NCBI GenBank assembly: GCA_020444065.1
Contig: JAHLLQ010000005.1
Span: 310,001 to 374,000, forward strand
DNA length: 64,000 nucleotides
Origin: a bacterium
GTDB lineage: Bacteria > Sumerlaeota > Sumerlaeia > SLMS01 > JAHLLQ01
Direction: 5' to 3'
Positions 9,258 to 59,718 of this stretch are shown piece after piece. Position 1 is the stretch's first letter. Each line of letters opens with the position of its first letter. Below the pieces are notes generated by a model. The model was not told where the DNA came from and did no database searches. It was given only the letters and a program-made list of their open reading frames with translations. The translations under genes and the position numbers were made by a program.

Positions 9258-12200
9258 TCACTTCAGCAGTTCCCGGGTGACTATATCGGCTGGATCGATC
9301 AGGTTGTCGTTGTTGAAATCCAGCCCTTGCGGGTCGGTTGTCCGACCCAGAATGACACTGATCACGGCGTCCGGTGGCGCCATGGGAGTGAACTCGGTTG
9401 TCATGTTATTGTCTTCGCTGTACTCGTCGATCAGGTTGTCCGGATCGATGACGGCGACGATGGAGTAGTCCTGGTCGTCCGGGATGACCCAGCGCGCTGT
9501 GATCGTCATGCTGCTGTTTCCGGAGAGACCTGTATTCGTGCGTTCATTCTCGACGATTGGGATCAGTTCGCGTGCATCGGGAGGCATCGCGTAGAGCGAG
9601 TAGTGGAAGTACCAGGCGCTCAGATCGCCGATGTTCTTCACTTCGGCAAAGACCGTGACTTCGTTGCCCGGTTCCGGGATGCCGCCCTGCAATCCTGTCT
9701 TGCCGACCGCCAGGTCGCGCACGGATTCGTGACTTAGCATCGAGAAGGTGCCATACTCGGCCAGGTCGCGTTCAATCACACCTGTTGTGACGCCGTCGAT
9801 CTCCGCAGTCGTCGGAGTCGACGTCAAATCGGCCTTCCAGAATCCGACGAGGAGACTGTCGTTCGCGTCCGGGAGCGCGACGAAATTCTTCTCAAAGGAA
9901 CGATCTGGACTCAGCGGTCCCGGCGCGCGCTCCAAACCCATGATCTCCAGCGCGGGCCCGCCGTCGACTTCGTGTCCCGGGCCTATGAATCCAAATCCTA
10001 TGCCGGCCAGGTTAACCATGTCCAGACCCTCCAGGCTCGCGCCTCGTGAGTAGTTCTCATCGCCTGGATCATGCGGCGCCGGTTGGCCCTCGGGGAAAAA
10101 CTTCTGTCCTTGATCCAGGTCACCAACGTGCACGGCGGGCGCCATGATCCCGGTGTCTTTGTAATCCTCCATTTCCACCCAACCGATCGCAATTCCCGCC
10201 AGATAGGCGTGCATCATCGGATGGAACGTCATCGTGGGTTCGGGCTGACGGAATTCACGATACAGCGTATTGTATATTGGCCCCACATAGACCGAGTGGC
10301 GCCACTTCTCTGCGCGAATATCTCCCTCTAACGGATCGACGCTTGTGACATCCTCCATGCGCGTGATGACGATTTCGATCGTATTGCCGTAAAGCGCGGC
10401 GGCGTACTCCAGAATATCGTCCGGAACGCCCGCTTCTGGATCTTCGTCGCCCAAGCGCCGGTGGTTTCCGAACTCGAAGTCATAGCCCATTTCGAGCATG
10501 TGCAGCGTAATTCCGCCCAAGCGCCCGCTACTAATTGGATCCGCCGACAAGTCCCACGGCAAGTAGTTGCCGTTCTCCGACTCCAGCCACAGCATCCAGG
10601 CCTGACCGAATCGCGCATCGGCGGACTGTACGTTGAAAGCCGTCTTACCCGTGATCGGGATTTCCCGCACCTCGGTCCATGTACGTGTCTCAGGATTGAA
10701 CGTCGCGTAAGCCGGAATCAGGTTCTGCATCATGGTCTCGTTGTCGGCTTGAGGGTCTCCGCTCGGCTGCAAATCTTCAATCGCCACGCGTTCCCACATC
10801 GCAACGAATCGCTCGTGAATCGGCTCGATGCTGGAGATCTTATAATAGCCGACATCCGGTTTGAAATCCATCTTGGCGTCTGCGCAAACCGGAGCCGGAT
10901 CGCTGAAACTCATTCCATCAAAGTAGCTGTACCAGATATCGGTTGCCTGCGTTGCGGGCCTGCCTTCGATCGGCTGCTCCCACAAGACCATGTATCGAAA
11001 GCCATCTGTCGAACGCCCGATGACCGGGCGTGTGCCATCTGGCAAGCCGCCGATCACGTCAGCTTCTGTGTCGAAGTCTGTGGGATCGTTTGGCACTCCG
11101 CGCGCGCGACGTTGGCGTTCAAACTCGTGGAATGGGTTTCGAGTGATGATGTGCGGGCGCTCTTCCAACGTTTTGACGGCGCGCCCCCCTGGTTCCGCGT
11201 ACGTGTACTGCCAGCCACTGTCGGAGACGATCGTTGGTTTCGATGGCGGGACTCCACTGCGAGCGGGATAGGTGCTCGTAAACGTGTACCCTGTCTGGAA
11301 CTCGCGGATGATGTTGTAGATACGCAGCTTGGCACCGATCAGCAGACTTGCTCCGATGGAACCCATTCGCAGGCCAGAAGTCTCGTCCGGCACGAGTGTG
11401 ACGCTACCCTTCCCTTCACCGAACGCAGTGGCCTCCATGTAGTCGCCGAGCACATCGACAACCGCCGTGATCGTCAGGGCGATGTAGCCGGTGATCTTGC
11501 CATCGAACGAGAGATCGCTGTTCTCGTTGACCTTGATCTGCGATTCCGCATCGATGCCGAGCGTAATCGCCGCGATCAATTTCGCACGTTGATCCAACCA
11601 GGCGACGGCGCTGCCGATGAAGGGCCATTGCTTCAACGGTGCAAGCTGCGGAAACACGACGGACATCTTGGCTTCTTCCTTCACGGTTCCCGCCAGTTTC
11701 ACGGTGACCAATCCGCCGGTGAAGTCGAGTCCTTCCGGAGTGAGCTGATTGATCACGCCACCACCGAGCTCTGTGCGCAGCACGCCCGAACCGACAAGGA
11801 ATTCACCACCGCCGGCAACGGAGATGTTTCCGTCGCCAACACTGGCGATTTCCGCCTTTGCCGACGCCTGAACTTCTTTGATGCCGTAGCGCTTTCCGCC
11901 GACCCACGGAATGCCGTCGATGAACTCCACCCACGCGTTGATGGGCGTTCGTGGTGCGACGCCGGAGTAACCCCACTTCACGACCTTATCGATGAACTGA
12001 TCGCCGAACGGGCCATAGCTTGGATCGAGCGAGTAGAACGGGATCGTGCCCGGGTAGGTTCGCAGTGGGATCGCCATCTGGATGGGCGTGCTGATCTGAT
12101 TGTTCGTATTCTGAAGCGTGAACAGCGAGTAGGGATTCTCAATGCCATCCAAGACATCGCGCCTGAAATATCCCGTGACCGTCCCAGCGTCGTACGTGCG

Positions 12201-13199
12201 AGGCCCGATGAAGACTCCATCATAGACGCGAAGTGCCTCGATATCGCTCCCGCCGCCGTACGCCGCGAGCGTCCAGTTCACGGGATATGATGCGGAATGC
12301 TCCGGGAATGTCCACAGAACGCCTTCTTGATTCAAATCGAACGATGTGACATCGGGCAGAGTCTGAGCCTGAAGCGAACGCTGCGTGATGTTCGCGTCCT
12401 TGGCGTTCAGAAACATGAACCCATCGTGGCTTCCGATCAGACGACAGGAACTGATAACCCCGCCAATGTATGCTCCATCGAATCGCCCTTTCTGGTAAAA
12501 CGTCTGCCCGTCGAGTCGATAGAACTTCCCGTAGTCATAACCATCCTCGATAATCATCACGTACAGATCGGATGAGACTCGATCGACAGCTAGGAAGTAG
12601 GGACTGAGTCCATAGCGATTCGGACTGGGAACACCGAAGATGTTCGTGAAGAGCTGCGAACGTGTCACTTGCTGCCGAATGGCGGTCGCATCGGGGCTCA
12701 GATTATATATCGAACTTCCGCAGATGACCCACCACGACCCGTCGTTCGCGCGATCGATCGCGTTTACGCATCCGGTAGATAGAACCGTACTAAAGTCGAT
12801 CGTATCGGTCTTTGTGATATCCGGCTCGCCCTCGGTTGTGGTCCCGAGCTGCCAGACGGTCATGGTCGTGAGGTCTTCATCGAGAACGTACCATGTGTCG
12901 TCATTCGCAACAAAGCAAGCCCCAAGCGTCGTGTATCCAAAGGCGTTGTGAAACCCGTAGTAATCCACGGGATAGCTGAAGGAGATCGTGGAGAGATGAC
13001 TCCCACCTCGATCGTAGGTGTTAATCTCGCCAAGCTTCTCTACGTAGTGTCGCCCGAGCGTCTCATCGAATGTCCAGCGAGCCTTATCTGTATTAGGCGG
13101 ATAGAGCGAATAGAGGACATCGCCTGGATTCTGTGCGAAGGTCTGACCGCAGAGAATCGGCAGGATAAACAGGGAGAGCACTGCGAGTCGCAGTTTCAT
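9258..13199 (-). CDS. Very large secreted protein with CARDB domain and dockerin-like C-terminus
   Basis: The 1313-residue protein starts with a signal peptide (M-K-L-R-L, hydrophobic core, cut near F-A-Q). The N-terminal ~470 residues contain repeating W- and Y-rich segments that suggest a beta-propeller. A middle part of about 180 residues is rich in alternating hydrophobic residues, followed by an R/P-rich segment and a second beta-rich domain. Near the end is a CARDB-type adhesion domain (V-F-A-E-V-K-N-I-G-D and D-N-L-I-D-E-Y-S-E-D-N-N), then a last segment with L-D-F-N-N-D-N-L-I-D-P-A-D-I-V, an EF-hand/dockerin-like calcium loop. ATG 13199 has GGAGGGG five bases upstream; the TTG at 13211 lies at that site and is rejected. 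Role unknown; probably surface or extracellular. Confidence 0.75.
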   Translation of the reverse strand: MKLRLAVLSLFILPILCGQTFAQNPGDVLYSLYPPNTDKARWTFDETLGRHYVEKLGEINTYDRGGSHLSTISFSYPVDYYGFHNAFGYTTLGACFVANDDTWYVLDEDLTTMTVWQLGTTTEGEPDITKTDTIDFSTVLSTGCVNAIDRANDGSWWVICGSSIYNLSPDATAIRQQVTRSQLFTNIFGVPSPNRYGLSPYFLAVDRVSSDLYVMIIEDGYDYGKFYRLDGQTFYQKGRFDGAYIGGVISSCRLIGSHDGFMFLNAKDANITQRSLQAQTLPDVTSFDLNQEGVLWTFPEHSASYPVNWTLAAYGGGSDIEALRVYDGVFIGPRTYDAGTVTGYFRRDVLDGIENPYSLFTLQNTNNQISTPIQMAIPLRTYPGTIPFYSLDPSYGPFGDQFIDKVVKWGYSGVAPRTPINAWVEFIDGIPWVGGKRYGIKEVQASAKAEIASVGDGNISVAGGGEFLVGSGVLRTELGGGVINQLTPEGLDFTGGLVTVKLAGTVKEEAKMSVVFPQLAPLKQWPFIGSAVAWLDQRAKLIAAITLGIDAESQIKVNENSDLSFDGKITGYIALTITAVVDVLGDYMEATAFGEGKGSVTLVPDETSGLRMGSIGASLLIGAKLRIYNIIREFQTGYTFTSTYPARSGVPPSKPTIVSDSGWQYTYAEPGGRAVKTLEERPHIITRNPFHEFERQRRARGVPNDPTDFDTEADVIGGLPDGTRPVIGRSTDGFRYMVLWEQPIEGRPATQATDIWYSYFDGMSFSDPAPVCADAKMDFKPDVGYYKISSIEPIHERFVAMWERVAIEDLQPSGDPQADNETMMQNLIPAYATFNPETRTWTEVREIPITGKTAFNVQSADARFGQAWMLWLESENGNYLPWDLSADPISSGRLGGITLHMLEMGYDFEFGNHRRLGDEDPEAGVPDDILEYAAALYGNTIEIVITRMEDVTSVDPLEGDIRAEKWRHSVYVGPIYNTLYREFRQPEPTMTFHPMMHAYLAGIAIGWVEMEDYKDTGIMAPAVHVGDLDQGQKFFPEGQPAPHDPGDENYSRGASLEGLDMVNLAGIGFGFIGPGHEVDGGPALEIMGLERAPGPLSPDRSFEKNFVALPDANDSLLVGFWKADLTSTPTTAEIDGVTTGVIERDLAEYGTFSMLSHESVRDLAVGKTGLQGGIPEPGNEVTVFAEVKNIGDLSAWYFHYSLYAMPPDARELIPIVENERTNTGLSGNSSMTITARWVIPDDQDYSIVAVIDPDNLIDEYSEDNNMTTEFTPMAPPDAVISVILGRTTDPQGLDFNNDNLIDPADIVTRELLK

Positions 13200-13304
13200 G
13201 GTCCCCTCCAAGAAGCCAACGAATGTTCAACCTTACGCAATCACTGGCCTGCGAGAGCGCGTTCTGTCAATCTGAGGTTGGAACAGAGGAAGGCCTGCAG
13301 GGCG

Positions 13305-55921: not shown

Positions 55922-58414
55922 ATGATAGCTCCACGAGATGTATTTGGGGCGATCCGCGGGATCGCCGTTAAGACTGTGCGTCCGACGGCTACAGGATTCG
56001 CGATCGCTGCGCTCGTCGGCGGCCTCGGTTGCGCGACGGCTCCGCGAACGGACTCGTCGGCAACCGGGATGACTCTGGCCGAAGCAAGTGCCGCCATGGC
56101 CGAATCCGGCGCCTTGAACGACTACATTTTCACCCGCACGAAGGTCGGGCGGCACACCTTCCCGAAGTACCCGGACAAGGCTTGGGAATGGTTCTGTGAG
56201 CGGCGCCTGGATGATGGCATGAAGAAACTGCCGGACTTCTATCGGCAGGAAGCCATGCTGGTGACCCAGAAGAACAACATGGATCGCCGGACGCTTCGGG
56301 CGAATGCGCAGTGGACATTCCTCGGGCCTGACGGCACGACCGTTCAGCCGTCCGGTCGCTTGATCGAGATGGTGGTGCATCCGCAGGATCAGAACACGAT
56401 CTGGGGCGCCTCCGCGAGCGGCGGCGTCTGGAAGACGACCGACCAGGGCGTGACTTGGGCGAACGTGACGGACGGCAGTCTGCCGACGATCGGCATGGGC
56501 AGCCTTCAGATCGATCCGCACAATTACAATCGCTTGTATTGCGGCTTGGGCGAAGGTGTGCCGGGCAGCTTCTACGAGCCGTTCGGCGCGGGCGTTTATC
56601 GCTCGACCGATGGCGGAAGCAGTTGGTCGATCGTCAGCGGCACCAACGTGATGAACTACGTTACGGATATCGATATTGGTGCCAACTCGGACACGTTGCT
56701 CGTCGCCGCGAAGGGGTCCGGCGGAACCGGCGCCGGTTTCTATCGCACGACAAATGGTGGGACAAACTGGACCGCCGTTTCTTCCGATCCTTTCTTCGAT
56801 ATCAGCGTTGACCCCGCGAATCGCAACAATGTCGTAGTGACGCGCGGATACAACACTGTCAACGCCGCGAGCGGCGCCATTTTCTATTCGACTGATGGCG
56901 GGGCGACACTGAGTCCCTCCACTACTCCAAGCACTACAAATGCCTTCCGCATCGAGTTGGCTCGCAACGGCACGACGGTCTACGCGCTTGTCGGCGCAAC
57001 GGATTCTTCGATTCTGGGCATCTGGAAATCGACGAATAACGGGCAGAGCTTCTCTGCAATGTCGACTTCCGGCATTCCGACAAGCGGCGACTATAAGCCT
57101 GGCCAGATGACGTATAACTGCTCGATCGGCGTTAGTCCGACCGATGCCAACGTCATCTATGTCGGCTCGAACCTGCGCATGTACCGGACGACGAATGGCG
57201 GAACGAGTTGGGCGGCCGTGACGGACTGGGCAGGCGAAGGTGGCTTGAAGTACATCCATGCGGATCATCATTCGATTCGCTTCGGTTCGACAGGCAGTAC
57301 GGTGTACATGGGCACGGACGGTGGATTCTTTGTCAGCACCGACAGCGGGGCAAATTGGACGGAGCGCAATGTCCACATGACGTCGACGCAGTGCTATCGA
57401 ATCGATTGCGATCCACAGAACGCGCAGCGCGTGATCATCGGCTGTCAGGACAACGACAAGTACGTCCGGCGGACCGATGGGACGTGGCATCATTATCCCA
57501 ACGCGTTCGGCGATTGTATGGAAGTGATTGCCTGGCCGAACGACCCGTCGACGTACATGGGCTGCAACTACTACGCTTCGGCAGTGCGCCTCACGCCCGA
57601 CGATGGTGCAAACTGGTACTTCCTCCGCTCGTACGGTACTTCGAACAATGGCATTCCGGACGCCGAGAAGGGGGCCTGGGTTACCCCGTTCTTCATCGAT
57701 CCGCAGAATCCCAAGGACATCTACATGGGCGTGAATGGCGTCTATAAGGGAACCTACAACGGCATCAATCAGCCGTTCAGTTGGACGAATCTGATCGCTC
57801 CGAATACGAGCTATTCCCCTGCCAGCCTCGACACGCTAACGATCACCAATGGCATGACCGGCCGGAAGCTTGTCGGTTTCAGGGCACGTCGGAATAACTC
57901 GACAGGTCAGTTGGGCGTCGAGTTGTTCCGGTCGAATACGAATGGCACGAGCATCGAGTCTCTGACACTGCCGTATCTGGGCTGGATCAGCGACATCGAA
58001 TGCGATCCGTCGGATAACGATACATTCTGGATGACCTACTCCAACCTGGGTCTTGGCACCGGAAGTCGCGGGCGCATTTACAAGACGACCGATCTTGGGA
58101 CCACCTTCCACGACATGACGAACAACTTCCCGCAGGACCTGCCGGCCAATGCCCTCTGGATCGATCCGACCAATTCGAACACGATCATCGTTGGCTCGGA
58201 TATCGGTGCGTATCGCTCCGACGATGGCGGCAACACGTGGGTGTATTGGAATGACGGTCTGCCGCCGGTTGTCATCACAGACATGGCCTACCTGGCAAAT
58301 GGCCGAAAGCTGCGGGCTGGCACGTACGGACGCGGAATCTGGGAGACGCCTTTGGATTCGCAGGGCGGCTCGCCGAGCATCCGCATTGAACCTTCGACAC
58401 TTCAGTTCCCCTGA
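55922..58414 (+). CDS. Secreted BNR/sortilin-like beta-propeller protein, possibly truncated
   Basis: The 830-residue protein begins with a hydrophobic segment ending G-G-L-G-C, a non-canonical lipobox, so it is exported and perhaps lipid-anchored. Residues ~130-820 contain repeated Asp-box/BNR motifs (Y-R-S-T-D-G-G-S-S-W, V-W-K-T-T-D-Q-G, Y-R-S-D-D-G-G-N-T-W) like sortilin/VPS10 and photosystem II assembly factor propellers. The chain ends just after S-I-R-I-E-P-S-T-L-Q-F-P, which resembles the first strand of an Ig-like choice-of-anchor D/ASH domain, while the domain itself is missing. GAGGG lies 9 bases before ATG 55922. The next gene, 41 bases on, carries the matching remainder of such a domain. 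Confidence 0.8.
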   Translation: MIAPRDVFGAIRGIAVKTVRPTATGFAIAALVGGLGCATAPRTDSSATGMTLAEASAAMAESGALNDYIFTRTKVGRHTFPKYPDKAWEWFCERRLDDGMKKLPDFYRQEAMLVTQKNNMDRRTLRANAQWTFLGPDGTTVQPSGRLIEMVVHPQDQNTIWGASASGGVWKTTDQGVTWANVTDGSLPTIGMGSLQIDPHNYNRLYCGLGEGVPGSFYEPFGAGVYRSTDGGSSWSIVSGTNVMNYVTDIDIGANSDTLLVAAKGSGGTGAGFYRTTNGGTNWTAVSSDPFFDISVDPANRNNVVVTRGYNTVNAASGAIFYSTDGGATLSPSTTPSTTNAFRIELARNGTTVYALVGATDSSILGIWKSTNNGQSFSAMSTSGIPTSGDYKPGQMTYNCSIGVSPTDANVIYVGSNLRMYRTTNGGTSWAAVTDWAGEGGLKYIHADHHSIRFGSTGSTVYMGTDGGFFVSTDSGANWTERNVHMTSTQCYRIDCDPQNAQRVIIGCQDNDKYVRRTDGTWHHYPNAFGDCMEVIAWPNDPSTYMGCNYYASAVRLTPDDGANWYFLRSYGTSNNGIPDAEKGAWVTPFFIDPQNPKDIYMGVNGVYKGTYNGINQPFSWTNLIAPNTSYSPASLDTLTITNGMTGRKLVGFRARRNNSTGQLGVELFRSNTNGTSIESLTLPYLGWISDIECDPSDNDTFWMTYSNLGLGTGSRGRIYKTTDLGTTFHDMTNNFPQDLPANALWIDPTNSNTIIVGSDIGAYRSDDGGNTWVYWNDGLPPVVITDMAYLANGRKLRAGTYGRGIWETPLDSQGGSPSIRIEPSTLQFP

Positions 58415-58455
58415 TCGAGAACGGGACAACGAGAAACCATGGAGGCTTCACAAAA

Positions 58456-59718
58456 ATGACAATGATGAAAAAGATGCTCCAACGAGCTCTCCCCGTTTTC
58501 GCAGGAATGACCTTGCTGGGCAGTGCGGCCGCGCTCGAACCGATCGCGATGGGTGGAGAACACACTGCGCCGCCAATTGCTCCCGAGATTCTCCAGATGC
58601 TTCGCGAAAATCAAAGCTCGCCCATCAGTTCAAGAACCGGGGCGGATGCTCGCGGAGAAGTGACACTTCTGGCTGAAGATTTTGAAGGGTCATTCCCAGG
58701 AGCATGGGTTGTGTACCCTGCCAGTGGGTCCACCGATGCATATTGGGGGAATCAATCGACTCACACTTACCAAGGAAATGGCTCGGTCTTCTGCGCCGGT
58801 GCCGGAACTGCGGCGGTTGCGCCGGGAAGCACATATCCGGATGGTATGGACGCTTACATGGTGTCGCCATACCTGGATCTGAGCGACGCGACTGCTGCCT
58901 CAGCCAGCTTCATTGTGGAGAACTATCTCGAGGAAACTTGGGACTACTTCTACTGCTACGCCAGCGCTGACGGTTTCACAACCTTCGACTACTGGTATGT
59001 GACCTCGGATAACGATTGGGCGGTCGGCTCTTATGATTTTGCCAACACGCCGAACGGCTATAGCCTACTTGGCAATTCTCAGGTTCAACTGATGTTTCGT
59101 TTCTACAGCGACACATCGACCGGAGAGACGGGGACTTTCATAGACAACGTTCTGATCACAAAGACCACTGCCGGCGGGACACCGACGCCGACGCCGACTC
59201 CATCGCCCACACCGACGGCAACGGCGACGGCTTCGCCGAGCCCGACTCCATCGTCGACGCCAACACCGTCGCCGACTCCGTCCCCGACGCCGACAGGGGC
59301 AATCCAGAAATCGTTCACCGTTTACAATGACGGCACCGCGAATCTGACCGTCAGCCAGGTCGATGAGGAAACGGGAAGCAACTGGCTCTCCGTCTCAGCG
59401 CCGACAGGATATCCCGTGACGATTGCTCCCAGTGGCAATGCAGTCTTTACGGTGACGGTGGATCCGACAGGTCTTTCGAGCGGAGACTACGCGGATCGAT
59501 TGCTGGTTTACTCAAACGACACGGCGCACAGCCCTTACAGCGGCGGCGTGAATATCAACCTGCGCGTCGGCAGCACGCTCACGCTCAACGACTTCATCAC
59601 GGCGCTGACGTCTGCGCCGGGAACGACTCCGCCGGATCAGAATGGCGATTCGCTCATCGACGCAGCGGACGTCATCAAGTTCCAGACTACTCGGCGCGCG
59701 ACGTTGACAATCAACTGA
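58456..59718 (+). CDS. Secreted protein with choice-of-anchor-like domain, Thr-Pro linker, Ig-like domain and dockerin-like tail
   Basis: The 420-residue protein has a signal peptide cut near A-A-A-L. Residues ~70-235 form a jelly-roll/choice-of-anchor J-type domain (E-D-F-E-G-S-F-P-G-A-W-V-V-Y-P). A T-P/S-P linker (~240-280) follows. Then comes an Ig-like segment starting directly at F-T-V-Y-N-D-G-T-A-N-L-T-V without the normal first strand, and a C-terminal dockerin-like loop (D-Q-N-G-D-S-L-I-D-A-A-D-V-I). GGAGG precedes ATG 58456. It probably belongs to the same extracellular set as the neighbouring BNR protein. Confidence 0.82.
   Translation: MTMMKKMLQRALPVFAGMTLLGSAAALEPIAMGGEHTAPPIAPEILQMLRENQSSPISSRTGADARGEVTLLAEDFEGSFPGAWVVYPASGSTDAYWGNQSTHTYQGNGSVFCAGAGTAAVAPGSTYPDGMDAYMVSPYLDLSDATAASASFIVENYLEETWDYFYCYASADGFTTFDYWYVTSDNDWAVGSYDFANTPNGYSLLGNSQVQLMFRFYSDTSTGETGTFIDNVLITKTTAGGTPTPTPTPSPTPTATATASPSPTPSSTPTPSPTPSPTPTGAIQKSFTVYNDGTANLTVSQVDEETGSNWLSVSAPTGYPVTIAPSGNAVFTVTVDPTGLSSGDYADRLLVYSNDTAHSPYSGGVNINLRVGSTLTLNDFITALTSAPGTTPPDQNGDSLIDAADVIKFQTTRRATLTIN

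Follow-up and report, generated by a model that had tools for sequence, protein, structure and literature searches.

How can a single immunoglobulin-like (Ig) domain be divided between two neighboring genes, and can its two parts still act together? The question is raised by a 64,000-nucleotide stretch of a Sumerlaeota genome (GCA_020444065.1, contig JAHLLQ010000005.1, positions 310,001 to 374,000; hereafter, the window), in which open reading frame 1 (ORF1) encodes a lipoprotein-like BNR/VPS10-type beta-propeller and the following ORF2 a protein with a MAM-like domain and an Ig domain. A preliminary description of the window had proposed that ORF1 ends just after the first strand (strand A) of an Ig domain of the ASH/choice-of-anchor-D type and that ORF2 resumes the domain without it. 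Our analysis bears this out. It also leads to a possibility absent from that description, namely that the two halves still work together: we consider it likely, from sequence and models, that the ORF1 tail completes the ORF2 Ig domain in trans by donor-strand complementation and so holds together a dedicated two-protein surface complex.

The Ig domain of ORF2 opens at IQKSFTVYNDGTANLTV (59302), after a Thr-Pro linker. PF22544 (Pfam) enters it at position 22 of 100 and choice_anch_D (NCBIfam NF012200) at position 36 of 108, and this late entry indicates that the N-terminal strand is missing. On the domain alone, PF22544 gave 25.5 bits, equal to its cut-off of 25.5, and on the whole of ORF2 23.4 bits; NF012200 gave 28.0 to 29.9 bits on the domain alone and 31.6 bits with the ORF1 tail joined, below its cut-off of 45. 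Contiguous Ig relatives carry strand A about 20 to 23 residues ahead of strand B in the same chain. In ORF2 the best adjacent segment scored 4.2 with a strand-A profile (see below) and lies inside the Thr-Pro linker. An AlphaFold model of the domain (5 rows) has strands at residues 7-14, 21-28, 45-47, 52-59, 67-77, and 89-95, the first of which is strand B, and adopts a PapD/ASH-type beta-sandwich fold (Z 9.5 to 2qsv, 9.3 to CEP192 7ptb, and 7.8 to HYDIN 2e6j). Solved single-domain relatives have more residues ahead of the aligned part, as in HYDIN 2e6j, aligned over residues 23-110. The best match of the Ig profile to solved structures by sequence was nitrous-oxide reductase (E 0.0077, 56 residues), which we take to be due to chance.

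The C-terminus of ORF1 is SIRIEPSTLQFP, and the last residues before the stop are GGSPSIRIEPSTLQFP. To score it, an 11-residue strand-A profile was built by expectation-maximisation on the 30-residue stretches that precede strand B in 52 contiguous Ig domains only; it converged mostly at one distance, with 44/52 domains at offsets 9, 11, or 12. The C-terminal segment ranked 1/834 in the window and, in the orthologues of three further genomes, 1/849 (G010), 1/815 (G023), and 3/842 (G016). Among 400 shuffles, the tail score was reached by 11, 0, 2, and 297, respectively. None of 82 remote BNR frames scores at least 9.9 in its last 30 residues, and 21/342 control frames of at least 400 amino acids reach 9.6 anywhere. 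When the tail was joined to the Ig domain of the window, the choice_anch_D match began at profile position 16 rather than 36, and its score rose by 1.7 bits. Joining gained 4.1 bits in G010 and 0.9 bits in G023, the profile start fell at positions 15-18 in three of the four split pairs, and a control peptide placed before the window Ig domain gained nothing. In the AlphaFold model of ORF1 alone, the tail is disordered, with residues 815-830 almost entirely below a predicted local distance difference test score (pLDDT) of 50 (815-819 and 821-830). An acceptor Ig fold without a strand is thus found by profile and model in ORF2, and a complementary free strand on the other polypeptide is found, as far as sequence and model go, in the ORF1 tail.

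Is this arrangement a peculiarity of one genome? Our collection holds 39 genomes of the window's class, and an ORF1 orthologue was detected in five of them, including the Sumerlaeota (BRC1) genome ADurb.Bin183 (MWCT01000008.1); Ig matches at E < 1e-38 occurred in the same five only. Four of these genomes, from four families, have the split layout with the same cut: the window, G010 from the same order, and G016 and G023 from other families of the class. ORF1 ends there in IRIEPSTLQFP, IRISPETLNFN, ARVEPSTLIFP, and IKVVPNSVQFP, respectively. Family members normally ending at this strand had been named in the preliminary description as a result that would refute its reading, and ORF1 orthologues in G010, G016, and G023 do end there. 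In all four genomes, the next gene encodes a signal peptide, a MAM domain, a Thr/Pro linker, and an Ig domain that likewise begins without strand A (hereafter, headless). Window ORF1 shares 45-56% protein identity with its relatives. In all five BNR sequences Pro824 and Phe829 do not vary, and the tail shows the alternating conservation of a strand, I, I, P, L, and F being high and most of their neighbors low. The modules after the Ig domain vary, from a short loop tail in the window and G010 to TSP3 repeats with a weak dockerin match in G016 and carboxypeptidase-regulatory repeats in G023.

The fifth genome, G027, provides the fused counterpart, in that each of two adjacent genes carries both halves in one chain. 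The first chain reads BNR-DIEVTPESLAFTF-MAM-FN3-FN3-QDIVIKNIGDATLEITG and the second BNR-DIAVQPASVNF-MAM-FN3 repeats-QTFTVRNIGNASF, the latter truncated by the contig end. Here too the Ig domain is headless, since strand A precedes the MAM domain. Two pieces that the preliminary description had assigned to one domain thus stand in one polypeptide, with the MAM (choice-of-anchor) domain between them. An in-frame TAG interrupts the BNR part of the first of these side-by-side paralogues (L123, G027:C174; the second is L014) and may mark a broken gene or an error. A BNR protein running on into an Ig domain, which that description had suggested looking for, exists more remotely: in a Hydrogenedentota locus, one of 79 remote loci, the BNR protein continues directly into a complete Ig domain. 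Viral contigs yielded no relative of the BNR profile or of L200, one of the inserted-domain proteins described below. A single change, in either direction, would account for the split and fused forms. A tree of 19 BNR proteins joined window with G010, G016 with G023, and the two G027 paralogues with each other, each at full or nearly full support; since these three groups meet in a trichotomy at the Sumerlaeota root, this single-gene tree does not decide whether the split or the fused form came first. The proposal of an ancestral BNR-Ig gene that received an insertion is one possibility that fits these data.

A strand A far from the rest of its domain is not confined to this family. A search of 386 genomes with a profile of strands B-G found 25 places in 22 genomes at E <= 1e-8. 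Sorted by reading the upstream sequence, 4 are split over genes, 12 have a long insert between a strand-A-like segment and strand B in one chain, and 9 are contiguous (L183, L203, and the second Ig domain of L182, also considered here, lie outside the 25 places). In many members of this Ig subtype, strand B has no adjacent strand A, and a strand-A-like segment lies 331-801 residues upstream. These segments were first chosen by eye; with the strand-A profile, the chosen segment ranked first in 11 of 13 one-chain rows. Among 10 inserts examined with Pfam, seven contain a subtilase (L198, L199, L200, L202, L203, L183, and L182) and two a papain-like peptidase (L201 in G167 and L176 in G020, one of which also has a Lectin_like domain); the insert of L180 had no Pfam match. 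In one-chain proteins from several lineages, entire peptidases sit between strands A and B, so a distant strand A is a recurrent design, of which, judged by sequence, the two-gene case seems to be the extreme. Two proteins of this set deserve separate mention. In L180 (G035), the strand-A-like segment directly follows the signal peptide, strands B-G lie 331 residues further on, and the insert contains HEFGHN and appears metallopeptidase-like by eye. L197 (G096) has a MAM-like domain, two tandem Ig units with about 200 residues between A and B in each, and a type IX secretion system sorting tail.

According to the donor-strand reading that we favor, ORF1 would be exported and anchored by lipid as a propeller with a free peptide, P-x-I-x-[IV]-x-P-x-[ST]-[LV]-x-F, at its C-terminus, and ORF2 would be exported separately, its Ig domain presenting a matching groove in place of strand A. 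The ORF1 tail would enter this groove as strand A and thereby tether ORF2, with its MAM-like domain and the variable modules at its C-terminus, non-covalently to the anchored propeller. Several observations weigh against this reading. Split cases known to us number only four. The tail of G016, which starts with Ala, ranks third and is not significant on its own. The gain on joining is small, and in G016 it is negative (-0.4 bits). Among the one-chain proteins, L182 and L202, whose segments rank 9 and 4, are doubtful, and the segments of L183, L180, and the second unit of L197 score low. Finally, the model of the lone ORF2 Ig domain is fairly confident (block means 71-88 for residues 1-100), so the domain might be stable unaided, without a strict need for strand A.

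This last point also favors the most serious rival, in which an ancestral BNR-A-MAM-Ig gene was split, the ORF1 tail is a functionless leftover, and the ORF2 Ig domain copes without strand A. The one-chain form in G027 shows that such a gene can exist. A leftover would, however, hardly be expected to end at the same residue in 4/4 split genomes and to keep its pattern at the protein identity given above, while the signal region and N-terminus of ORF1 are conserved far less. We therefore regard this explanation as improbable, although it retains more weight than those that follow.

Could the tail instead be a signal for sorting or export, placed at the C-terminus and only superficially similar to strand A? 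Its extreme C-terminal position and predicted disorder would suit such a signal, but its distribution argues otherwise. Only 4/1833 distinct ORFs (at least 150 amino acids, ending within the examined loci) score at least 9 with the strand-A profile in their last 16 residues; three belong to the ORF1 family, and the remaining open frame has no relation to it. L122, the fourth split relative, scores just 4.4. A strict DNA pattern for the tail, which by design misses G016 and G023, ends a long frame in the 39 class genomes only in the window and G010, as would not be expected of a general signal, and the same search revealed no other gene with an exposed strand A beside a headless Ig domain. In addition, the counterpart of the tail is internal in G027. 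On these grounds, we hold a sorting signal to be very unlikely.

Equally hard to maintain is the view that six strands are the natural state of this Ig subtype and strand A is dispensable, with the upstream motif coincidental or binding elsewhere. The many members without strand A beside strand B speak for it, but those very members have the upstream strand-A-like segment described above, ranked first in most one-chain rows, and contiguous relatives place strand A at a regular distance before strand B.

Recombination peculiar to this genome and an assembly error, both considered in the preliminary description, have a negligible probability, as has a sequencing error: a one-base frame shift would indeed open ORF1 into the frame of ORF2 in the window, but the independently assembled genomes G010, G016, and G023 share the break with other frame offsets, and their second genes each have a ribosome-site-like stretch and a signal peptide. 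Judged from gene coordinates, ORF1 and ORF2 are separated by 41 nucleotides in the window, 21 in G010, 64 in G016, and 17 in G023, and the frame offset takes three different values across the four split genomes (window, L002, L005, and G016). Since the offsets vary, neither an assembly error nor a programmed fusion accounts for the split, and a programmed frameshift or stop read-through joining ORF1 to ORF2 was rejected. The frame of ORF2 upstream of its start (58408-58455) reads PLIENGTTRN, which resembles the A-B loop of contiguous Ig domains, either by chance or as a possible relic of a formerly continuous gene.

Donor-strand complementation is known from chaperone-usher pili (FimA; PMC6615685) and from Mfa4 of P. 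gingivalis (PMC4789730), and TapA gives its terminus as a strand to a different protein, TasA (PMC10151520). As in these systems, an incomplete Ig-like fold in ORF2 is predicted to be completed by a strand of another polypeptide. The present case is set apart in that one gene pair encodes both partners, a propeller and a MAM-Ig protein, that the proposed donor strand is C-terminal, that no hint of polymerisation is seen, and that the cut interrupts a domain which relatives produce as a single chain. In lipin/Pah phosphatases, two distant sequence parts, separated by a linker of 250-500 residues in one chain, co-fold into one Ig-like domain (PMC7066176); these are cytoplasmic eukaryotic enzymes, and the domain is split after strand E of a single polypeptide. 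ORF2 shares its sequence profile and modelled fold, strands B-G, with the ASH/choice-of-anchor-D/HYDIN-VesB Ig domains (PF22544, NF012200) and differs in having strand A on another gene, as other members have it behind an inserted domain. The Vpr subtilase of Bacillus, a peptidase with an Ig-like domain, is a structural neighbor of the ORF2 Ig domain (8jmw, Z 8.2). The description of its fibril contacts consulted here depicts them as mostly hydrophilic and does not mention strand donation (PMC10657474), and Vpr fibrils were therefore set aside as a precedent. Donor-strand systems and lipins are known relatives in kind, and none of them is the ORF1/ORF2 system; a search of the open-licence literature turned up no bacterial case of an Ig domain divided between two genes.

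The remaining features of the two proteins are given below and in Table 1. ORF1 matches Sortilin-Vps10 (PF15902) at E 3.2e-25 with 89.3 bits, above the gathering cut-off of 33, and is thereby a VPS10/BNR propeller by Pfam; with 111.1 bits it falls short of the NCBIfam cut-off of 175 for F510_1955 glycosylhydrolase. Its AlphaFold model, built with 36 relatives, is a propeller with a mean pLDDT of 80.3 across the whole protein, and Foldseek likened it to GH74 propellers and enzymes (E ~1e-28), by which a carbohydrate-related role of the pair is only suggested. A Cys occupies the position equivalent to the end of the signal sequence in G010 (LAGC), G016 (FGC), G023 (IASC), and G027 (LGC); we take the lipobox to be canonical in G010 and G023 and near-canonical in the other family members.

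ORF2 comprises, in order, a signal peptide, the MAM-like domain, the Thr-Pro linker, the Ig domain, and a short tail that contains a single dockerin-like loop. Matches to the MAM-like domain are weak (PF20773, E 0.087; gingipain adhesin domain 3m1h, E 0.059). Of the dockerin-like tail noted in the preliminary description, the single D-x-N-x-D loop stands; Pfam gave no Dockerin_1 (PF00404) match to ORF2 at E <= 1, and membership in dockerin type I is not upheld. A large secreted protein elsewhere in the window (9261-13226, minus strand) ends in the same one-loop tail (loop at 9285-9320). The window contains this loop pattern twice, as against 0/100 shuffles, and such a tail may, from its sequence, be a group-wide C-terminal tag.

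Table 1. Coordinates of ORF1, ORF2, and their parts in the window
Feature	Coordinates	Strand	Remarks
ORF1	55922..58414	+	830 aa; lipoprotein-like BNR/VPS10-type beta-propeller; C-terminus a predicted free strand A
ORF1 signal sequence	55922..56032	+	ends ...LVGGLGC; lipobox-like, -3 residue non-canonical
Beta-propeller body of ORF1	56309..58351	+	residues ~130-810; AlphaFold model
Putative donor strand A	58379..58408	+	IRIEPSTLQF, residues 820-829; disorder predicted in ORF1 alone
ORF1 tail peptide			SPSIRIEPSTLQFP
Junction ORF1-ORF2	58415..58455	+	41 nt; GGAGG of ORF2 at 58441-58445
ORF2	58456..59718	+	420 aa; predicted secreted acceptor protein
Sec-type signal peptide of ORF2	58456..58533	+	from sequence; cleavage site placed by eye
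MAM/cleaved-adhesin-like domain	58669..59160	+	weak profile matches; conserved in relatives
Thr-Pro-rich linker	59179..59301	+	occupies place expected for strand A
Incomplete ASH/choice-of-anchor-D Ig, strands B-G	59302..59568	+	profiles and model
C-terminal tail of ORF2	59569..59715	+	one dockerin-like D-x-N-x-D loop, 59635-59670; low model confidence

Taken beyond this locus, the ASH-type Ig domain might be a general bacterial clasp, in which strand A and strands B-G flank large cargo such as a subtilase, a papain-like peptidase, a MAM domain, or others; in Sumerlaeota, a cut within the clasp would have turned the chain into a split-tag pair, natural, obligate, and non-covalent, through which a secreted protein is docked on a lipoprotein. 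We consider the chances for and against this broader view to be evenly balanced. If the donor-strand reading is correct, ORF1 and ORF2 would add a use of donor-strand complementation outside pili, as a two-gene connector joining a lipoprotein to its secreted partner, and would offer a natural pair of peptide tag and acceptor for protein engineering. It would also account for the headless Ig domains that profile searches report after many bacterial peptidases, and it would provide a domain cut by a gene boundary yet still in use, with split and one-chain forms that can be compared.

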